Shown here piece after piece: positions 20,366 through 39,351 of a stretch of 64,000 nucleotides of DNA (positions are counted from its first letter, which is position 1; every line of letters starts with the position of its first letter). The notes below the pieces were generated by a model. The model saw nothing but the letters and a program-made list of their open reading frames with translations. It had not been told where the DNA came from and made no database searches. A program made the position numbers and the translations under genes. Origin of the DNA: an uncultured Ardenticatenia bacterium (GTDB taxonomy: Bacteria > Chloroflexota > Anaerolineae > 4572-78 > NAK82). Location: NCBI GenBank assembly GCA_937127125.1, contig CAKZLO010000034.1, positions 391,257-455,256 on the forward strand, in the 5' to 3' direction.

Positions 20366-21433
20366 CTATCTATAGTCCCCCGTGAGGATGCATTCGGGTG
20401 GTCCATCAACCGCGAAGACGGTGGTATCGCGATCGATCTGGTCATTGCCAGGGATCCAGTAACAGGTGCGCGTGTTGCATTCGCGGTTGGTGAACGTGAT
20501 GTCGCCACTGTAGGCATTCCATACCTCTACCCATTCGTTGTAAGTGCCTTTGGTGATGTTGTGTTCCCACACGTATTTGTAGCCTGCGTATGGTCCACGC
20601 TGGACGGTGAAGCTGTCTCCATCACTCAGCAGACGCACATATCCTTCAGAGGGTTGGCTGTCGATGCCGTTGTGATTCTTCGTCACGCCGCTCAGATCGA
20701 TCAGTGCTCCTACGTTGCTCCACTCCAGTGTGATACCCGTGCCGCTGGGCCGCAAGAAAGGTTCGAGCAAATCGCAGCGGTTATCGTTGTATTGGGTGCG
20801 ACATTGTTCGATCGCTGCATCAGTGATCCAGACACCTGGATAGCTCAAGCTGGGTATATCGTACCTGCTGAGGAGGAGCTTGTGGCCACCATTGCGTTGC
20901 AGGTAAATGTAGAGGCCGAAGTTGCGACTGTAAGAGTTAGGTTGGTATTCAAGCGCTCTGTTGGCATTCCGGTAATTGTCGACTTCGGCGCTGACGCTGC
21001 CCTGCTGGCAGTCTTTGATAGTGGTCCGTACGTTGGGGGCATAGCGGCAATCCTCGATGAAGTAGTTGTCACATTGGTTGGCACACACCGACAGCTGGCC
21101 CAAGATCATCTGCCAGCACTGCATAGTGTACCCACCCGGCGCGTCAACAAGCTCTGCGGCCACGCTTAGTAGAAGCTCGGCGGCGGTGCGCCATGCGGCC
21201 TGATTGCAGCCAGTCAGATTGTAAGCAGAGTCATACCAGGCATAGTAATTGTTGCGCCCGGCCAGGAAGTGCTGGTGGGCCAAGCAATTGACGAGACACG
21301 CATTATGCAGGCATTGTGGACTGTTGCCCTGAGCGGAAGCAGGTCGGGGTTGTAGCCATAAGGCGCTCCACGCTCCGCTGAGCAAAAGACATGACAGCGT
21401 CGCGATGCCAAGGCATGACCCGTATCGTAGCAT
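20366..21433 (-). CDS. Exported cysteine-rich protein, N-terminal part
   Basis: A 355-residue exported protein of unknown function. A signal peptide covers about residues 1-36 (hydrophobic core, cleavage near PASAQG). A region with many cysteines follows (CLHNACLVNCLAHQHFLAG, CWQMILGQLSVCANQCDNY), which suggests disulfides. The C-terminal third is beta-rich, with DGDSFTVQRGPYAGYKYVWE and VFAVDGPPECILTGDYR just before the stop. The second ATG (21433) has GGAG 9 nt upstream; the first, 21442, is too close to it. A frameshift in the GGGGG run near the end would continue it into the next frame. I do not recognise the family. Confidence 0.72.
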   Translation of the reverse strand: MLRYGSCLGIATLSCLLLSGAWSALWLQPRPASAQGNSPQCLHNACLVNCLAHQHFLAGRNNYYAWYDSAYNLTGCNQAAWRTAAELLLSVAAELVDAPGGYTMQCWQMILGQLSVCANQCDNYFIEDCRYAPNVRTTIKDCQQGSVSAEVDNYRNANRALEYQPNSYSRNFGLYIYLQRNGGHKLLLSRYDIPSLSYPGVWITDAAIEQCRTQYNDNRCDLLEPFLRPSGTGITLEWSNVGALIDLSGVTKNHNGIDSQPSEGYVRLLSDGDSFTVQRGPYAGYKYVWEHNITKGTYNEWVEVWNAYSGDITFTNRECNTRTCYWIPGNDQIDRDTTVFAVDGPPECILTGDYR

Positions 21434-21500
21434 AACCTTCATCTCCTCGGTGAGACTTATCTGGCCCGCAAAAGATGTGCTCGCGGGATCGTTGCTGGAC

Positions 21501-22178
21501 TTAGACCCCTTCTTCTACGAACGGCAGCACCATATTAACCAGCAAATGAATAAGCTCCTCACGCACCTTCTTGAAGTGTATCAGAGTCTGGCGCTCAGCC
21601 TCATCACCATTGCCGGCCAGGATGGCGTCCATAATAGCTTTATGCTCACTATTGGCCCGGTCTATGCGACTGAGAATGGTGGTGAAGCCGATACGCACTC
21701 GGTTCCACTGATCATTTAAGTTCCAAATGAGCTTTTGTGCCCGTTTGTTATCCGCCATAGCGAAAATCGCATCATGGAAGCGGTGGTCGGCTTGTATCCA
21801 AGCTGCAGTGTCATGGTTGGCGGCAGCTCGGCACATGTCATCAAAGGCCTGCCGAAGAGCAGTGCGTCTCTCCTCGTCTGTACAGGTAGCTGCTTTGCGG
21901 GCCACCATGCCTTCTACTACTTCTTTGATATCGAAGATCTCTTGGATGTCCTTCAACGAGAGTGTATGCACCCGCCAGCCACGCCGAGCCTCGTAGATGA
22001 GCAAGCTTTCCTTCTCCAGGCGATGGAACGCCTCACGCACAGGGGTACGGCTGATGCCAAGCTCCTTTGCGACGCGAGTATCCGTGATGTATTCGCCGGG
22101 CTTGAAACCCCTATTGATGATTCTGTTCTTGACAAATTCGTAAGCTTGTTGCTGGCACGTGGTAGTTGAGCTCACCAT
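21501..22178 (-). CDS. GntR-family transcriptional regulator (FCD/FadR subfamily)
   Basis: A 225-residue DNA-binding repressor or activator. The winged helix is N-terminal: QQAYEFVKNRIINRGFKPGE, then VAKELGISRTPVREAFHRLE, the GntR signature. The C-terminal FCD ligand domain is all helical; Asp and His residues in QADHRFHDAIFAMADN and the His in ANSEHKAIMDA would bind a metal, as in metal-dependent FCD members. ATG 22178 has a GGTG Shine-Dalgarno site; the open frame extends 7 codons further. It is transcribed divergently from the transporter-transketolase operon. GTATAC motifs in the shared promoter region fit the operator type of this family, so it probably controls that operon in response to a sugar acid or pentose derivative. 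Confidence 0.92.
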   Translation of the reverse strand: MVSSTTTCQQQAYEFVKNRIINRGFKPGEYITDTRVAKELGISRTPVREAFHRLEKESLLIYEARRGWRVHTLSLKDIQEIFDIKEVVEGMVARKAATCTDEERRTALRQAFDDMCRAAANHDTAAWIQADHRFHDAIFAMADNKRAQKLIWNLNDQWNRVRIGFTTILSRIDRANSEHKAIMDAILAGNGDEAERQTLIHFKKVREELIHLLVNMVLPFVEEGV

Positions 22179-22213
22179 TAGACACCTGCCCTGTGGCATG
22201 GAGGTTAACTGAC

Positions 22214-22242
22214 ATTATAGTATGACAACAGACATAAGTCAA
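22214..22242 (-). promoter_or_regulatory. Promoter of the GntR regulator gene
   Basis: On the minus strand TTGACT, 17 nt, TATAAT, about 35 nt before the regulator's start codon. It is back to back with the strong plus-strand promoter at 22277. Confidence 0.65.
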
Positions 22243-22263
22243 GAGCCCTTTGTATTCAGAATT

Positions 22264-22292
22264 GTATACTTTAATATTGACAGGCAGTATAC
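22264..22292. promoter_or_regulatory. Paired GTATAC operator candidates
   Basis: Two GTATAC palindromes (22264-22269 and 22287-22292), 23 bp apart, sit just before and inside the plus-strand promoter. GntR/FCD regulators often bind palindromes with GTATAC-like cores. The second copy lies in the -35/-10 spacer, so binding would repress. Confidence 0.45.
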
Positions 22293-22305
22293 ACTATGGT
22301 ATAAT
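22277..22305 (+). promoter_or_regulatory. Consensus sigma-70 promoter of the transporter-transketolase operon
   Basis: TTGACA (22277-22282), 17 nt, TATAAT (22300-22305): both hexamers are perfect. Transcription would begin near 22312, giving a leader of about 225 nt. Confidence 0.75.
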
Positions 22306-22354
22306 ATCATCAGTATTGATTAGGTGTTGAGCTTCTGTTGAACCTTTGTACCCA

Positions 22355-22456
22355 GTGGTCTGGCAGAGTCTTCGGACGTAAGCCGGGCGTTACTGAACCT
22401 GAGGATTGCTCACAGTCCTGTGCAATCCCTGTCTGCCGTAGCCAGAAGGGGGTGAT
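22355..22456 (+). ncRNA. Structured 5' leader RNA, candidate cis-regulatory element
   Basis: An outer stem GGCAGA/TCTGCC (22362-22367 with 22432-22437) can enclose a strong hairpin GGATTGC/GCAATCC (22403-22409 with 22422-22428, with inner CACA/TGTG pairing) and a weaker GTAA/TTAC hairpin (22378-22393). The region ends in AAGGGGGTGAT, an extended Shine-Dalgarno site with one mismatch. I do not recognise it as any riboswitch class known to me. Folding was done by eye. Confidence 0.4.
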
Positions 22457-22540
22457 GTGAAACGCAAAGTCAAGGTAATAAGACTAAGTGTCGTGTTGAT
22501 GAACCTTTTTCATGCTTTGTCAAGGAGGGATAAAGAATGA
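22457..22540 (+). CDS. Possible 27-codon leader peptide
   Basis: A GTG start 4 nt after the extended Shine-Dalgarno sequence begins a frame encoding MKRKVKVIRLSVVLMNLFHA and a short basic end. Its TGA overlaps the ATG of the next gene (ATGA). The basic N-terminus plus hydrophobic core could be a small membrane peptide, or the frame could serve only to couple translation. It may also be chance. Confidence 0.3.
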   Translation: MKRKVKVIRLSVVLMNLFHALSRRDKE

Positions 22541-22941
22541 AAACCAAGAACTTCAGCCGACGCGAGTTCCTACGCCTCAGCGCCCTGGTGGCGGCAGGTC
22601 TGGCAGCTGGGAGATACATCCAAACCGATCAACCCACACTGGGGACTACTGAAGCGCTGGCTGCTGCACCCCCCGCTGCTGAAGAAGTCACCTTGGATGT
22701 TATGGCGCCGGCGCCTGAGTATGCCAACGCGTATCGGGAAATCTGGAACGTCTTCGAATCAAAGAATCCCGGCATCAAGATCAACCTGTTCTCAATCAAT
22801 GAAGACACCAAAGCTGCCTATGAGGCCAAAATCGCGGCAGGTCAGCTGCCAGCGATGGAAAACACTCAAGATCTCCAGATCACGGCCAACAAAACCAACT
22901 ACCAGATGTTCCTGAATTTGGGCGAGATCGGTTTCCCTTGA
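22537..22941 (+). pseudogene. Sugar ABC transporter substrate-binding protein, N-terminal remnant
   Basis: The first 134 residues of a carbohydrate ABC transporter binding protein; intact members have about 400-450. A Tat-type signal (SRREFLRLSALVAAGLAAG) is followed by the first lobe's start, EVTLDVMAPAPEYANAYREI, and FESKNPGIKINLFSI. The frame then runs into FLNLGEIGFP and a stop, right where permease sequence begins. Thus two thirds of this gene, a first permease gene and half of a second permease gene appear to be deleted. The start has a good AAGGAGGG site and the operon promoter is intact, so the fragment is probably expressed but useless for uptake. Confidence 0.85.
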
Positions 22942-23306
22942 TGATCATGACCTCTTTTATAAGTGCAATCCCCAAGGAAATCGAGGAGGCAGCCCAGCTG
23001 GATGGGGCCAGCCAGATGCAATACATGCGGTATATCTTGTTCCCGCTTCTGAAGGTGCCTATTGCCAGCTTAGTGGTAATTATGTTGCCGCAGTTCTGGA
23101 ATCAGTTCCTGGAGCCTTTCGTCTATCTGGATCAAAATAATACGACGCTGTTGCCGTTGATCCAAAATCTCTCGGGCGTATACTCGACAAACTTTCAGAT
23201 ACTATACACGGCGATTTTTGTTTCCATACTTCCTCTGGCAATAGTTTATCTGGTCTTCCGCCGGTTCTTCATCGAGGGGGCGATGGCCGGTGCAGTTAAG
23301 GGGTAG
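22938..23306 (+). pseudogene. Sugar ABC transporter permease (MalG-like), C-terminal remnant
   Basis: The last ~122 residues of an inner-membrane permease of a carbohydrate ABC importer. The EAA loop that docks with the ATPase is complete: IPKEIEEAAQLDGASQMQYM. Two further helices and the standard ending FRRFFIEGAMAGAVKG follow. The N-terminal helices are missing. Reading starts at a TTG within the fusion point without a Shine-Dalgarno site, in a different frame from the binding-protein fragment. The sequence TTTCCC at the junction (22932-22937) fits both parents and may mark a short-homology deletion. Confidence 0.85.
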
Positions 23307-23398
23307 ACTTTTGCTCGTGATAAGATCCTGCCCGGGACAAGGGGGCGCTTTAAATTGTGTTATCAAATCAGAGCCAGACTACGGAGGAACTAGAATTA

Positions 23399-24496
23399 AT
23401 GAAAACACAGATGACTAAATCTACTCGCCAAGAAGCTCGCGTTGGACAAGAACGTTATCTCGACCCGTTCGATGTGTCTCTTTTTTGGAAGCCTTTCCGC
23501 GAAAACACCCGGCAGCGCTACGATGTATTACCGTTTCACGCTGACTATCCAGAGCTGCTCAGGAGCTGTGAGGTTCTCGCGTACCTGATCCGCAGTTACA
23601 CCGTGTGGGAAATGACCTGCGGGGCGTTGGGCCATCCCGGAGGCAGCTTTTCAGAGGCCGAATGTCTGGCAGTTCTCTTCAACTATGTGCTCCGTTTCGA
23701 TCCGCAAGATCCCGAGTGGCCTATGCGCGACGTGTTCTATCTCTCCAAGTGCCACGCTGTACCTGGCTTGTACACTGTTCTGGCGCTTTTCCGGTATTTC
23801 CCAATCCAGAAACTCAAGTTCTACGGCGCCTGGGGGTCAGGTCTTGAGTCGCATCCGGACTGCTTGATGACACCTGGCATCGAGGTCAGTGGCGGTTCGT
23901 TAGGCCAGATCCCAGGTGTGGCTGTGGGGCGCGCCTTGGGTATTCGTTACAACGGGCCGGACCATAATGACCGGATTGTGTATGTCCTAATCGGCGATGG
24001 GGAGTGCAACGAGGGGTCTGTTTGGGAGGCTTTTATGGCAGCTGGTCACTGGAAGCTCGACAACCTCGTGGCAATCATCGATTATAACAAGGTTGAAGCT
24101 AAGGGGTTCCTCAGCCAGGACATGAGCATCGAACCCTTAGTAGATAAGCTGAAGGCCTTTAATTTCCAAGTCTTCGAAGCTCAGAATGGCCACGATGTTG
24201 CCGAGCTAGTGGATATCTTCAACTGTATCATTGCACAGCGAAGAGGAAAGCCCATAGCGTTAATCTTGAACACGATCAAGGGTAAGAAGGTACGCGAGTG
24301 TCAGTACAACCCGAACTGGCATACGTCGGCGCCGCGCGATGTAGAGAAAGCTGGAATTTGGTTGGAGGAGTTGTGGGAGCAAGACGGTAGACGACTGGGC
24401 ATTCCCAAGGAGTTTCACCTAGCTCTGAAGCAGGCCATTGAGATTGTACCACCTGCTCATGGAAACCCCGATGAGATTGTTGAACGGCAGGCGTAG
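23399..24496 (+). CDS. Transketolase, N-terminal (TPP-binding) subunit
   Basis: The 365-residue first half of a split transketolase, carrying thiamine diphosphate. The TPP/Mg site is IGDGECNEGSVWEAFMAAG plus AIIDYNK. CGALGHPGGSFSEAE and SKCHAVPGLYTVLALF give the conserved His residues. GGAGG 11 nt before the ATG at 23399 decides the start; the frame is open back to 23357. It is followed after 9 nt by the C-terminal subunit. Split transketolases occur in normal pentose metabolism but also in dedicated sugar pathways (apulose-4-phosphate, sulfosugars). The GntR gene and the transporter remnants suggest a dedicated catabolic role here, which is inference. Confidence 0.92.
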   Translation: MKTQMTKSTRQEARVGQERYLDPFDVSLFWKPFRENTRQRYDVLPFHADYPELLRSCEVLAYLIRSYTVWEMTCGALGHPGGSFSEAECLAVLFNYVLRFDPQDPEWPMRDVFYLSKCHAVPGLYTVLALFRYFPIQKLKFYGAWGSGLESHPDCLMTPGIEVSGGSLGQIPGVAVGRALGIRYNGPDHNDRIVYVLIGDGECNEGSVWEAFMAAGHWKLDNLVAIIDYNKVEAKGFLSQDMSIEPLVDKLKAFNFQVFEAQNGHDVAELVDIFNCIIAQRRGKPIALILNTIKGKKVRECQYNPNWHTSAPRDVEKAGIWLEELWEQDGRRLGIPKEFHLALKQAIEIVPPAHGNPDEIVERQA

Positions 24497-24505
24497 GAGG
24501 AAAGC

Positions 24506-25486
24506 ATGGCACAATTTATCATACCTAAACGGGATGAAACCAAGGAAATGCGCTATCAGATGGGGTACGCCTTGGCAGATCTGGCGTACGAATATGACAG
24601 GATCATCGCGGTTGACGCCGACCTTAGGAGCTCCTCTGGTCTGCACATATTCGAGCACTTTCACCCGGCGAAGCTGGTTAAGGTTGGTATTGCTGAGCAG
24701 AATCTGATAGCTGTGGCAGCGGGCCTTTCTCAGGAAGGGTATATCCCATTTCCATGCACCTTTGATGCCTTCAGTCGACGCTTTATGGACCAGCTGTATG
24801 TGACTGTTGCCTACAGTAACCTCAATGTTAAGGTACTTGGCGCTTACCCAGGTTTGTTCACCGGCAAAGCAGGTGCCACACACCAGAGCGATAAGGAGTT
24901 GGGCTTGATCCTGCGCATTCCGAACCTCACGGTGATTGAGCCAGGGTGCAACTTGGAGATGGCTCAGGCGCTGCGTAGCAGTGTCGAAAAACCTGGACCG
25001 TTCTACTTCAGGATCGTGCGATGTGAGGTAGAGTACAACGAAATCTTCGAGGGCTACAAGTTCGAGATCGGCAAGGGCGTGACGGTGTGCGACGCGGGTG
25101 CAGATGTTGGCCTGGTGTGTACTGGCTACATGATCAAGACAGCCAAGATTGCAGCTCAGAAATTAGCGAAGAAAGGTATTGGTGTACGGGTGGATCATCA
25201 CCCAACCTTGAAGCCCTTCGATCGAGATTTGCTCTACGACTTGGCTAAACGGGTATCGTGTATTGTTACTCTGGAGAACCACTGCACGAGTGGGGGATTG
25301 TTCTCCCTGGTTGCCGAGGCTCTGGCTGCAAAGGGGATTGGCGTGCCAGTAGGAGCCATCGGGACGGACCCTGAAGACTTCATTCATACAGGACACGTGA
25401 ACGATTTGCTCTACAGATACAAGATGACCTCGGACGATGTCGTGGAGAAAGCTCTTGACTTCCTCAATCAGAGAAGCAAGGTGTAG
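24506..25486 (+). CDS. Transketolase, C-terminal subunit
   Basis: The 326-residue second half, carrying the pyrimidine-binding and C-terminal domains. GIAEQNLIAVAAGLSQEGY has the catalytic Glu that activates TPP. FDAFSRRFMDQLYVTVAYSN and GKAGATHQSDKELGLILRIP form the substrate channel, with His residues in the last. LENHCTSGGLFSLVAEALA marks the C-terminal domain. AGGAGG lies 5-6 nt before the ATG. It is the last gene of the operon; the next gene is convergent. Confidence 0.93.
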   Translation: MAQFIIPKRDETKEMRYQMGYALADLAYEYDRIIAVDADLRSSSGLHIFEHFHPAKLVKVGIAEQNLIAVAAGLSQEGYIPFPCTFDAFSRRFMDQLYVTVAYSNLNVKVLGAYPGLFTGKAGATHQSDKELGLILRIPNLTVIEPGCNLEMAQALRSSVEKPGPFYFRIVRCEVEYNEIFEGYKFEIGKGVTVCDAGADVGLVCTGYMIKTAKIAAQKLAKKGIGVRVDHHPTLKPFDRDLLYDLAKRVSCIVTLENHCTSGGLFSLVAEALAAKGIGVPVGAIGTDPEDFIHTGHVNDLLYRYKMTSDDVVEKALDFLNQRSKV

Positions 25487-25578
25487 CGAGTCAGTAGTGC
25501 CCTGAATTGGATAGTGGGGTGATACCGGAACAGGAAAGAGCTCCTCCTAGTGATTATGTGAGTATTATGTGAGAAGTC

Positions 25579-25605
25579 GAAAAACTGCGCAGCCTGCTCC
25601 GCAGT
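25579..25605 (-). terminator. Terminator of the glyA-gcvT fusion gene
   Basis: On the minus strand ACTGCG, a 10-nt loop, CGCAGT, then TTTTC, starting 9 nt after the stop codon. The stem is short but correctly placed. Confidence 0.45.
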
Positions 25606-25613
25606 CGACCGTT

Positions 25614-28600
25614 CTATTCTTCTTTCGCGCGCCGGAAGCGCGGCAGAACTGTTGCCGTGTAGTGCAATGCTACCTCGTCACCAAGCTGTAGAGATTTCAG
25701 GTCAGCGCAACTCTTGTGTGCTGGGTTGAAGATCCCGATGCGTGTCCCTGTTTCTGCGTGGCGCTGCTCGACATAGGCCATACCTATTAGGAAGCCGTCC
25801 AGCCCGGCCGCACATGAAGTCACCCAACCAATCATACGTCCGCGCGCATTGACTACAGGGTACCCCATTTTTGGAGGGGGCACCCCTTTCTCATTCATGC
25901 GGAAACGCACTATCGTCATCGAGTTATGGCGCATTCTGGTTATAATCGCTCGACGTCCTACAAAGAACGGTTTATGTAACTTGACATAAGATCCAAATTC
26001 GGCGGCGAAGGGGTCAATGTCGTACGGGCCGGCCAACTCGTGACCGTAGAGCGGCAGGCCAGCCTCGGTACGCGTTGAATCGCGCGCTGCCAGGCCGGCA
26101 GGCTGCACGCCCAGATCAGCGCCAATCTCCAGGATACGTTTCCACAACAATGGCGCATGCGTGGGATGCACAAAGATCTCGTAGCCTATTTCTTCACCCG
26201 TATAGCCTGTGCGGGCGATGATCACATCCAGTCCAGCCAGACGGCCGCACATTAGTGCGGTGCGCGGAAGGCGCTCCAAGCCACAGCGTGTCGCCGGATC
26301 ATCTGCCAAGCGCAGCAGCATATTTCGCGATTGCGGCCCCTGTAAAGCGAGATCCACGCGCTGCTGCTCGCCCCATTGGGCATCCTTCAGATCCTGCAGC
26401 GTGGCCGATGCCTCGATCGTCTTGCCAGGCGCCTCGCGGTCCAGCACTACAGCACGTTGGTTAACCGCGTTCAGCCAATCCCAATCCTTTTCCGCGTTTG
26501 CTGCGTTGACCACCACCAAATAGTCATCGGCGCGCAGGCGGTACACCATAATGTCATCAAGCACGTGACCATCTGGGTCGAGCAGATAGGAGTATTGCGA
26601 CTGACCGTCTTCCAGCCAGGCAACATAGTTGGTTGTCACTGCATCCAGGAAAGAAGTGGCGTGCGGCCCGCTAACGCGCAATACACCCATGTGCGAGACA
26701 TCGTATAGCGCAGCCGTCGTGCGTGTGGCCCGATGTTCGTCGGCGACGCTGGAGTACCACAAGGGCATTTCCCAGCCAGCAAAAGGTGCCAGGTGGCGTG
26801 TGAGCTGCCGATGCTCCTCGTAGAGGCAGGTGCGCTTAAGTGTTGCCTCATTGGGTGGCTGCCAATGCCACTCGCTGCGCGGTTCTTCCGGCGTAGCAGG
26901 AGGTAAGCTGTGCTGACCGATGAAATACAGCTTTTGCAATGCAAAGAGGTCGCGATGGCCAGCGTGGTACAGATTTGCCCCGGAGCGGTCTTCCCCGTGT
27001 TGCCATATGGGTGTATCTTGCTCGCGGACAAATGACAACCAGCGATTCGCGATAGTATATACCTCTTCCATCTCTTTCTTGAGCTCATCCGCTGTCAAAT
27101 CGGCTACTACTACCGGACCTTCCACCTTGGCGAACAGGTCCTGAGGGTCGAATAACAGGTAACCATCCGACAACCCGCGCAGCCACGCCTTAGTCCGTTC
27201 TACAACATTTCTGTGTACCGCCAGCAGGTAGCGTGCGCGGCCGCGTGGGTCGGGGGGTAGGGCACTGACGAAGATGTCATCCAACACGCGACCGTCGGGC
27301 TCTAGCAGCAGCGTGCGGCACGCTTCTCCCACCGACAGGCTGCTCAGGTCGGAAGTGGTCACCTGCTGCATAAAGGCATGAGCGCGCCCACCAATAATAA
27401 GCAGGGCACATCGTTCCTGCTCCTCTGGTTCACGTGCTTGGGATAAAGCATTTGTCGCCTGCTTGGACATTGTAGAAAAGTGTGGGTAGCCACTGCGCGG
27501 TGCTGGCAGTTGGGGTGGGAAAGCATCTACCAGCTGCGCTACGTCGCGTTGCACTGCCTCCAGGATGTCCAGGGCGATCTTGCCGCGCGGCAGCGGGCCA
27601 GTGATACCTTGATAGGTAAAAGGGTGTACGGCACTGATTATGCGATAAATGCAGTCTGCAATAGTGTCCATCTCGGCAGTGCCCATGCCGCGCTGGGTGA
27701 CCCATGGTGTGCCAAGCCGCACGCCACGCGCCTGAGCAGTGACATGATCACCGGGCAGAGTGTTTTTATTAGCTACCAGGCCGCATAGCTCTAGTATGCG
27801 CACCACAGTCTCGCCTAGCAGAGGATAGCCATCGGCGCCTTTGATGGGGCGCAGATCTACCAGCAACATGTGGGTATCGGTGCCACCGTAGGCTAGCTTA
27901 AGCCCACGCTCCTGTAAGGCACGAGCGAGGGCTTGGGCGTTGGTGACGATTTGATGCATCATCGCTTTGAACTCTGGCGTGGCCGCGATCTTGAATGCAA
28001 CAGCCATTGCAGCAAACTTGTTAGGATGAGGACCCCCTTGGGCACCAGGGAAGACAGCAGCATCCACGCGTCGTGCTTTTTCCGGATCTGTGGTCATAAT
28101 CACAGCACCGCGTGGACCACAGATTGTCTTATGTGTGGTGAATACGATCACGTCGGCTAGGCCGACCGGATTGGGGTACACGCCTGCGCTCGCCAAGCCG
28201 GCCGGGTGGGCGATGTCTGCCATTAGGAGCGCGCCGCAGGCATCGGCAATCTCTCGGAAACGCCTCCAGTCCGGTGCCCACGGGTAGGAAGTAAAACCGG
28301 CTACGATCATACGCGGACGATGCTCCAGTGCCAGCGTCATGATAGCGTCATAGTCCAAGCGTTCTGTGACCGGATCAACACCGTAGGAAACGATGCGATA
28401 GCGACGGCCAGATATGTGGAATGGGCTGCCATGCGAAAGATGACCACCCTGAAAGAGGTTCATGCCCATCAACGTGTCGCCAGGTTGCAGGAAGGCATCA
28501 TACACTGCTAGGTTTGCCGCTGCTCCCGAAAGAGGCTGCACATTGACATAGATGTGTTCGGCTGGTACCTCTGGTGTGGCGAACAACTCGGCACAGCGAC

Positions 28601-28937
28601 GTTGCGCCAGCGTTTCAACAAAGTGCACGTACACGGTGCCCTTGTAGAAACGACGGTCGGCATAGCGACGATAATGGGCTAGCTGGTGGTCGAACTCCAG
28701 CAAGAGGTCAGGAGGAACTTGCATCATCCATGTGGGTGGATAACCCTCAGCATACACATTATTGAACACCGAGCCAAGCGCTTGTAGTACAGCTGGCGGG
28801 GCAATACTTTCCGAGGGGATTAGGATGATCTGGCGCGCCTGGCGTTCTGTCTCCAGAGCGATCAACCGTGTGACATCTACGTCAATGTCGGTTAGCTCTG
28901 CGGTCAGGAAGCGGTGTGCGTACACAGCGTTCTCCAT
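25614..28937 (-). CDS. Serine hydroxymethyltransferase - aminomethyltransferase fusion
   Basis: An 1107-residue fusion. Residues 1-445 are SHMT, which makes glycine and methylene-tetrahydrofolate from serine: IPSESIAPPAVL, YAEGYP, and the PLP lysine K270 in VFTTHKTICGPRGAV. Residues ~698-1100 are GcvT, the T-protein of glycine cleavage: HLAPFAGWEMPLWYSSV, ALYDVSHMGVLRVSG, RTGYTGEEIGYEIFV, RDSTRTEAGLPLYGHEL. In between, residues ~505-625 look like a partial second GcvT N-terminal fold (FMQQVTTSDLSSL, then EPDGRVLDDIFVSAL), perhaps a scaffold. Both enzymes share folate, so the fusion could channel one-carbon units. No gcvH or gcvP is nearby. The ATG at 28937 has an AGGAGG about 16 nt away, a long spacing. 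A promoter precedes it. Confidence 0.93.
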   Translation of the reverse strand: MENAVYAHRFLTAELTDIDVDVTRLIALETERQARQIILIPSESIAPPAVLQALGSVFNNVYAEGYPPTWMMQVPPDLLLEFDHQLAHYRRYADRRFYKGTVYVHFVETLAQRRCAELFATPEVPAEHIYVNVQPLSGAAANLAVYDAFLQPGDTLMGMNLFQGGHLSHGSPFHISGRRYRIVSYGVDPVTERLDYDAIMTLALEHRPRMIVAGFTSYPWAPDWRRFREIADACGALLMADIAHPAGLASAGVYPNPVGLADVIVFTTHKTICGPRGAVIMTTDPEKARRVDAAVFPGAQGGPHPNKFAAMAVAFKIAATPEFKAMMHQIVTNAQALARALQERGLKLAYGGTDTHMLLVDLRPIKGADGYPLLGETVVRILELCGLVANKNTLPGDHVTAQARGVRLGTPWVTQRGMGTAEMDTIADCIYRIISAVHPFTYQGITGPLPRGKIALDILEAVQRDVAQLVDAFPPQLPAPRSGYPHFSTMSKQATNALSQAREPEEQERCALLIIGGRAHAFMQQVTTSDLSSLSVGEACRTLLLEPDGRVLDDIFVSALPPDPRGRARYLLAVHRNVVERTKAWLRGLSDGYLLFDPQDLFAKVEGPVVVADLTADELKKEMEEVYTIANRWLSFVREQDTPIWQHGEDRSGANLYHAGHRDLFALQKLYFIGQHSLPPATPEEPRSEWHWQPPNEATLKRTCLYEEHRQLTRHLAPFAGWEMPLWYSSVADEHRATRTTAALYDVSHMGVLRVSGPHATSFLDAVTTNYVAWLEDGQSQYSYLLDPDGHVLDDIMVYRLRADDYLVVVNAANAEKDWDWLNAVNQRAVVLDREAPGKTIEASATLQDLKDAQWGEQQRVDLALQGPQSRNMLLRLADDPATRCGLERLPRTALMCGRLAGLDVIIARTGYTGEEIGYEIFVHPTHAPLLWKRILEIGADLGVQPAGLAARDSTRTEAGLPLYGHELAGPYDIDPFAAEFGSYVKLHKPFFVGRRAIITRMRHNSMTIVRFRMNEKGVPPPKMGYPVVNARGRMIGWVTSCAAGLDGFLIGMAYVEQRHAETGTRIGIFNPAHKSCADLKSLQLGDEVALHYTATVLPRFRRAKEE

Positions 28938-39214: not shown

Positions 39215-39240
39215 GAAATATGAAAATTGAATAGTAAGAT

Positions 39241-39345
39241 GTCTTGTTGGGGAGCTGGGTGAGCCCGGCTGAGAGGAGGCCCGATTGATGCCTCGACCCC
39301 TTGAACCTGACCTGGGTAATACCAGCGTAGGGACTTTGACGAGCA
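39241..39345 (+). ncRNA. TPP riboswitch
   Basis: The THI-box RNA that senses thiamine diphosphate. It contains the diagnostic CTGAGA in the first arm (39268-39273) and TGAACCTGACCTGGGTAATA with CAGCGTAGGGA in the second. GGGG near 39249 pairs with CCCC near 39297. It is followed directly by an intrinsic terminator and thiB-thiP, so ligand binding should stop transcription. Confidence 0.97.
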
Positions 39346-39351
39346 AGTTGT

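Follow-up and report, generated by a model that had tools for sequence, protein, structure and literature searches.

A widespread SHMT-GcvT fusion protein in Anaerolineae carries the remnant of a second GcvT between its two enzymes

Why should a single bacterial chain carry two folate enzymes of glycine metabolism, with a piece of one of them repeated in between? The window, by which we mean the whole 64,000-nucleotide stretch of DNA from an uncultured Ardenticatenia bacterium that was analysed here, encodes such a chain on its reverse strand: a protein of 1107 amino acids (aa) that begins with ATG, has no internal stops and is preceded by AGGAGG 16 nt 5' of the start codon. The first-pass annotation had read it as serine hydroxymethyltransferase (SHMT), a partial GcvT and a GcvT in one chain, a reading that is borne out by the uninterrupted frame and by the Pfam matches to SHMT (392.8 bits), GCV_T (277.5 bits, in two stretches) and GCV_T_C (29.5 bits). 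The order SHMT, GcvT piece, GcvT is found in 77 distinct relatives, which rules out chance or misassembly as its origin; the fusion is a real, widespread architecture built of known enzymes. Its parts are the following:

25614..28937, reverse strand: the SHMT - GcvT remnant - GcvT fusion gene
27618..28880, reverse strand: SHMT domain, aa 20-440 (Pfam, and alignment to Geobacillus SHMT 2vmv)
28662..28736, reverse strand: SHMT insertion of about 25 aa, aa 68-92 (alignments)
27099..27413, reverse strand: middle GcvT remnant, aa 509-613 (T-profile positions about 53-156)
26916..26933, reverse strand: KLYFIG of the middle, aa 669-674 (the K-P-Y-F-[VI]-G motif)
25728..26840, reverse strand: complete GcvT (T-protein) domain, aa 700-1070 (Pfam, alignment and structure match)
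26553..26555, reverse strand: codon of the catalytic Asp, D795 (T-profile position 97)

The N-terminal part scores 418.9 bits against the SHMT model NF000586, whose cut-off is 335. It keeps the PLP lysine K270 within TTHK (267-270), together with Y62 and E64 (both in YAEGYP), H166, D241, H244 and R407, which in the alignment to 2vmv correspond to Geobacillus Tyr51, Glu53, His122, Asp197, His200 and Arg357; the residues that bind substrate and folate are invariant or nearly so among the fusions. In these respects the domain resembles GlyA (NF000586; 2vmv, 1dfo), but it differs in having extra domains at its C-terminus and the insertion of about 25 aa, which lies between YAEGYP and RRFYKG, beside the active-site loop. 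This insertion is present in the fused clade and absent from Geobacillus SHMT and from the long standalone SHMTs that we compared. Standalone SHMTs of the same class form a clade separate from the fusion SHMT. Five genomes of the same order that have no fusion (G011, G016, G009, G007 and G015; loci L176-L180) carry a long-form SHMT of 504-537 aa, again without the insertion. In an AlphaFold model of the monomer, structural matches for SHMT span aa 12-477, with the small domain displaced relative to solved SHMTs (about 19 Å rmsd over the matched SHMT residues); this displacement is probably an artefact of modelling a monomer or of a shallow alignment.

The C-terminal GcvT exceeds the cut-offs of both TIGR00528 (gcvT; 283.9 bits against 235.85) and NF001567 (315.7 bits against 300), and matches the T. 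maritima T-protein 1wos over 355 residues at 1.6 Å (Z 46.6), that is, over the three-domain fold. By profile position, D795 corresponds to Asp97 of the E. coli ETD97N structure 3a8k, and this catalytic Asp is kept in all 77 fusions. Also kept are Y782, Y912, E920 and R956, in columns where Y, E and R are conserved in at least 96% of the 77. The likeness to GcvT (TIGR00528; 1wos, 1yx2, 3a8i) therefore takes in the fold, the catalytic Asp, the folate-site residues and an above-cut-off score, and extends in relatives to a place in an operon with gcvH and gcvP; the difference is that the fusion adds an N-terminal SHMT and the remnant of a second GcvT. Standalone GcvTs of the same class form a clade apart from that of the fusion. 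Domains of the GcvT family are able to demethylate other substrates as well, and dimethylglycine and sarcosine dehydrogenases, like DmdA/LigM, have a GcvT domain inside a larger folate enzyme. In the two dehydrogenases, however, the partner of GcvT is an FAD oxidase, whereas in the fusion it is SHMT, and the fusion falls far below the cut-offs of the dimethylglycine/sarcosine dehydrogenase and DmdA/LigM families. All parts of the window fusion are under purifying selection relative to a sister species, with NG86 omega values of 0.02 for SHMT, 0.05 for GcvT and 0.20 for the middle; these values are rough, because dS is high and near saturation in parts.

What, then, is the segment between the two enzymes? 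Alone, it passes the GCV_T cut-off with 32.7 bits over profile positions 52-122. Across the 77 distinct fusions the stretch from SHMT to the last GcvT measures 174-366 aa, and its match to the GcvT profile of 372 positions is graded, from positions 54-136 (about 83) up to 1-304; the most complete middle, that of L112, scores 255 bits, and one truncated frame (L023) is too short for its middle to be scored. All 20 long middles fall, with full support, in one clade apart from the C-terminal and standalone GcvTs. Short middles retain two pieces, a core at T-profile positions 53-156 and the K-P-Y-F-[VI]-G motif, which aligns with KPFFVG (T-profile 291-296) of full GcvT. The second half of the GcvT domain is missing from most middles, the folate tyrosine column has disappeared, and only 42 of the 77 retain the catalytic Asp. 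The state of the middle, long or short, changes about eight times on an SHMT tree of 76 fusions, suggesting that it was probably trimmed repeatedly.

The first-pass annotation had called this segment degenerate GcvT and had made that reading depend on its adopting a GcvT fold. AlphaFold gives a pLDDT of 84.5 and a pTM of 0.82 for the whole chain, and 87.4 and 0.81 for the middle alone; in the latter prediction the middle resembles known T-protein structures (1yx2, Z 16.1; 1wos, Z 15.3), and its top 32 structure matches all belong to the GcvT superfamily. The predicted fold agrees with the graded series in relatives and the lost folate and catalytic residues in upholding the earlier description. 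YgfZ/IBA57, GcvT paralogues without T-protein activity, have this fold in common with the middle (1nrk, Z 14.6), but the long middles score strongly to GcvT, the profile they were scored against, and form one clade, so a YgfZ-type middle was rejected. We conclude that the middle descends from a second GcvT, which stood in tandem with the first in the ancestor and has since eroded. Its role today is most likely that of a folded spacer that positions both enzymes.

The relatives of the window protein provide the context for its function. We surveyed 54 genomes, 42 with the fusion or a split form of it and 12 without. No other PF00464 protein scores above the cut-off in 34 of the 42; of the other eight, six encode a standalone SHMT of the classic kind and two only a divergent second PF00464 protein. 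By contrast, each of the 12 fusion-free genomes encodes a standalone SHMT. The fusion also accounts for all GCV_T matches in 20 surveyed genomes (G025, G030-G034, G036, G040, G041, G048, G075, G082, G103, G126, G159, G181, G216, G253, G262 and G278), and P- and H-protein (GcvP, GcvH) matches occur in all 54, the window's own genome (G000) included. Since the glycine cleavage cycle needs a T-protein and those 20 genomes have no other GcvT, in them it must come from the fusion, barring genes that the assemblies lack; the incompleteness of metagenome-assembled genomes could inflate these counts of only copies, although most of the surveyed genomes are more than 90% complete. Genomes that bear the fusion can appear in annotation to be without standalone glyA, gcvT or both.

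Gene order in several relatives places the fusion among the glycine-cleavage genes. Fusion, gcvH, gcvPA and gcvPB follow one another co-directionally in L041, L169 (G041) and L170 (G084), and in the same order as far as the contig end in L063; L175 has fusion-gcvH-SHMT-gcvPA-gcvPB, and in L172 the gcv genes adjoin the fusion convergently. In L012 and L040 a glycine riboswitch precedes the fusion frame by no more than about 300 nt. In L170 and L175 it is upstream with a short gene between, and L011 has a similar gap. That both halves work on one and the same folate one-carbon unit is supported by this, since within the glycine-cleavage regulon of relatives the fusion stands in for the two separate enzymes. 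The companion remark that no P- or H-protein gene is near holds for the window and fails for the family, where these genes are adjacent in several relatives.

We propose that the fusion is a glycine-cleavage T-protein and SHMT in one bifunctional glycine/serine enzyme, with an eroded tandem GcvT as spacer; we consider this likely, its job being read from relatives. The GcvT end would convert the aminomethyl group carried by GcvH to NH3 and 5,10-methylene-tetrahydrofolate (methylene-THF), and the SHMT end would transfer the methylene carbon to another glycine, yielding serine and releasing THF. The net reaction would be two glycines to serine, CO2 and NH3, and the flow could be reversed where serine is the starting compound. 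In many organisms methylene-THF couples SHMT metabolically to the glycine cleavage system, but with the enzymes as separate proteins it has been difficult to test whether folate is handed over directly; in the fusion, SHMT and GcvT are one chain, which in many genomes is the sole copy of both. No earlier description of an SHMT-GcvT fusion was found in open-access PMC, a search whose scope excluded most subscription papers and preprints, so novelty is unproven.

Within this explanation, rather than as alternatives to it, there are two ways in which linkage might matter. One is that the fusion serves co-expression only: it would fix a 1:1 ratio of SHMT to T-protein, methylene-THF would leave to the bulk, and the middle would be a passive linker. 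We give this about an even chance. In Roseilinea and its relatives the chain is split into two adjacent genes, SHMT plus middle and then GcvT, the break falling after the middle, and both products are nested in fused clades on both trees, indicating secondary fission. Covalent linkage is thus dispensable in these species, and the repeated trimming of the middle likewise fits a linker with no active part. Nonetheless, the fused form has been kept over the whole class and beyond, and the split proteins may still associate, since the middle stays on SHMT.

The other is direct transfer: the T-protein would pass its methylene-THF to an SHMT site in its own chain or an adjacent one, so that less of it decays to formaldehyde. 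We regard this as possible but doubtful. The suspicion has a chemical basis, in that the formaldehyde formed by the E. coli glycine cleavage system, when reconstituted, comes mainly from decay of methylene-THF (PMC7227101). The product of one domain is the substrate of the other, and the insertion beside the SHMT active-site loop is specific to the fused clade; on the other hand, the displaced small domain makes active-site distance and geometry, and any tunnel, unreadable from the model. Channelling of methylene-THF between GcvT and SHMT, which had been raised from the sequence at the outset, is plausible. A more elaborate and, we think, unlikely version is that the inactive remnant holds T-protein and SHMT such that methylene-THF passes unreleased, and cleavage and serine synthesis run as one unit without any other SHMT or T-protein. 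If so, many Anaerolineae, and apparently some archaea, would possess a natural folate-coupling machine.

The window's own genome provides an argument against the proposed role. On contig C14 there is a gcvT-gcvH-gcvPA-gcvPB operon headed by a glycine riboswitch immediately upstream, and the contig that holds the window also encodes a standalone SHMT, about 150 kb from the fusion; the window fusion is thus additional to a separate gcv operon and a separate SHMT. Neither gcvH nor gcvP was found near it, both being confined in this genome to C14, nor was a glycine riboswitch found at the fusion, the only riboswitch in the window being a distant TPP riboswitch (39238-39350, forward strand, 62.9 bits). 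With a full gcv operon and SHMT elsewhere and no riboswitch at this copy, the window protein could have drifted into a different role.

Adjoining the fusion is an island (21315-25626 of the window) with a GntR regulator, ABC-transporter remnants and a split transketolase. At 22537-23306 an ORF without Pfam match, resembling the N-terminus of a substrate-binding protein, leads straight into a C-terminal piece of a permease, as though a transporter operon had lost its central part by deletion. The sister species (L037) is without the island, and there the homologue of the gene at 20366-21442 starts about 300 bp after the fusion. We found no homologues of the split transketolase, DhaK/DhaL or ABC genes beside the fusion in other loci, and for these reasons rejected a pathway link between them and the fusion. 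That the GcvT half has, in the window genome, switched to a different methyl or aminomethyl donor outside the glycine cleavage system would suit the separate riboswitch-led operon and SHMT and the neighbouring sugar-transport remnants and split transketolase, but is improbable given the conserved folate and catalytic residues, the low omega, the sister species without the island, which shows that these neighbours are not a conserved partner, and the lack of an oxidase domain such as sarcosine or dimethylglycine enzymes have.

A taxonomic survey, one of the follow-ups that the first-pass annotation had suggested, places the fusion in about half of the Anaerolineae sampled (151 of 298 genomes, some with two copies; 514-aa query of SHMT plus middle, E <= 1e-110), in other Chloroflexota classes and in a record titled Euryarchaeota with five further genomes from its neighbourhood. 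Searching genome contigs gave 42 loci, nearly all titled Chloroflexota and one titled Euryarchaeota (L046), in which the fusion is the only SHMT and gcvH comes after it. The ribose-phosphate diphosphokinase on the L046 contig passes the cut-off of NF002095, which we take to be the archaeal type. Six of the 60 genomes in the neighbourhood of the L046 record have a close relative of the query, and the SHMT domains of these relatives group together in a single clade next to those of Chloroflexota (SH-aLRT 91); the middles of L046 and L185-L192 are often long. The L046 group is probably an archaeal branch, with possible transfer between Chloroflexota and archaea. The family preserves a clear record of its evolution: a fusion, a GcvT in tandem, one of the copies worn down repeatedly until a folded remnant was left, and a single return to separate genes.

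Some genomes, among them G033, G054, G068, G071, G099, G132 and G150, have two different fusion genes, one nearer to the window's and the other more divergent. A 1432-aa frame in G060 was rejected as another fusion: it is a GcvT ending a long spurious open frame. In one Anaerolineae subgroup a gene for the bacterial small SRP RNA is a recurrent neighbour, lying about 0.7-1.2 kb downstream of the fusion in L049, L057, L058 and L062.
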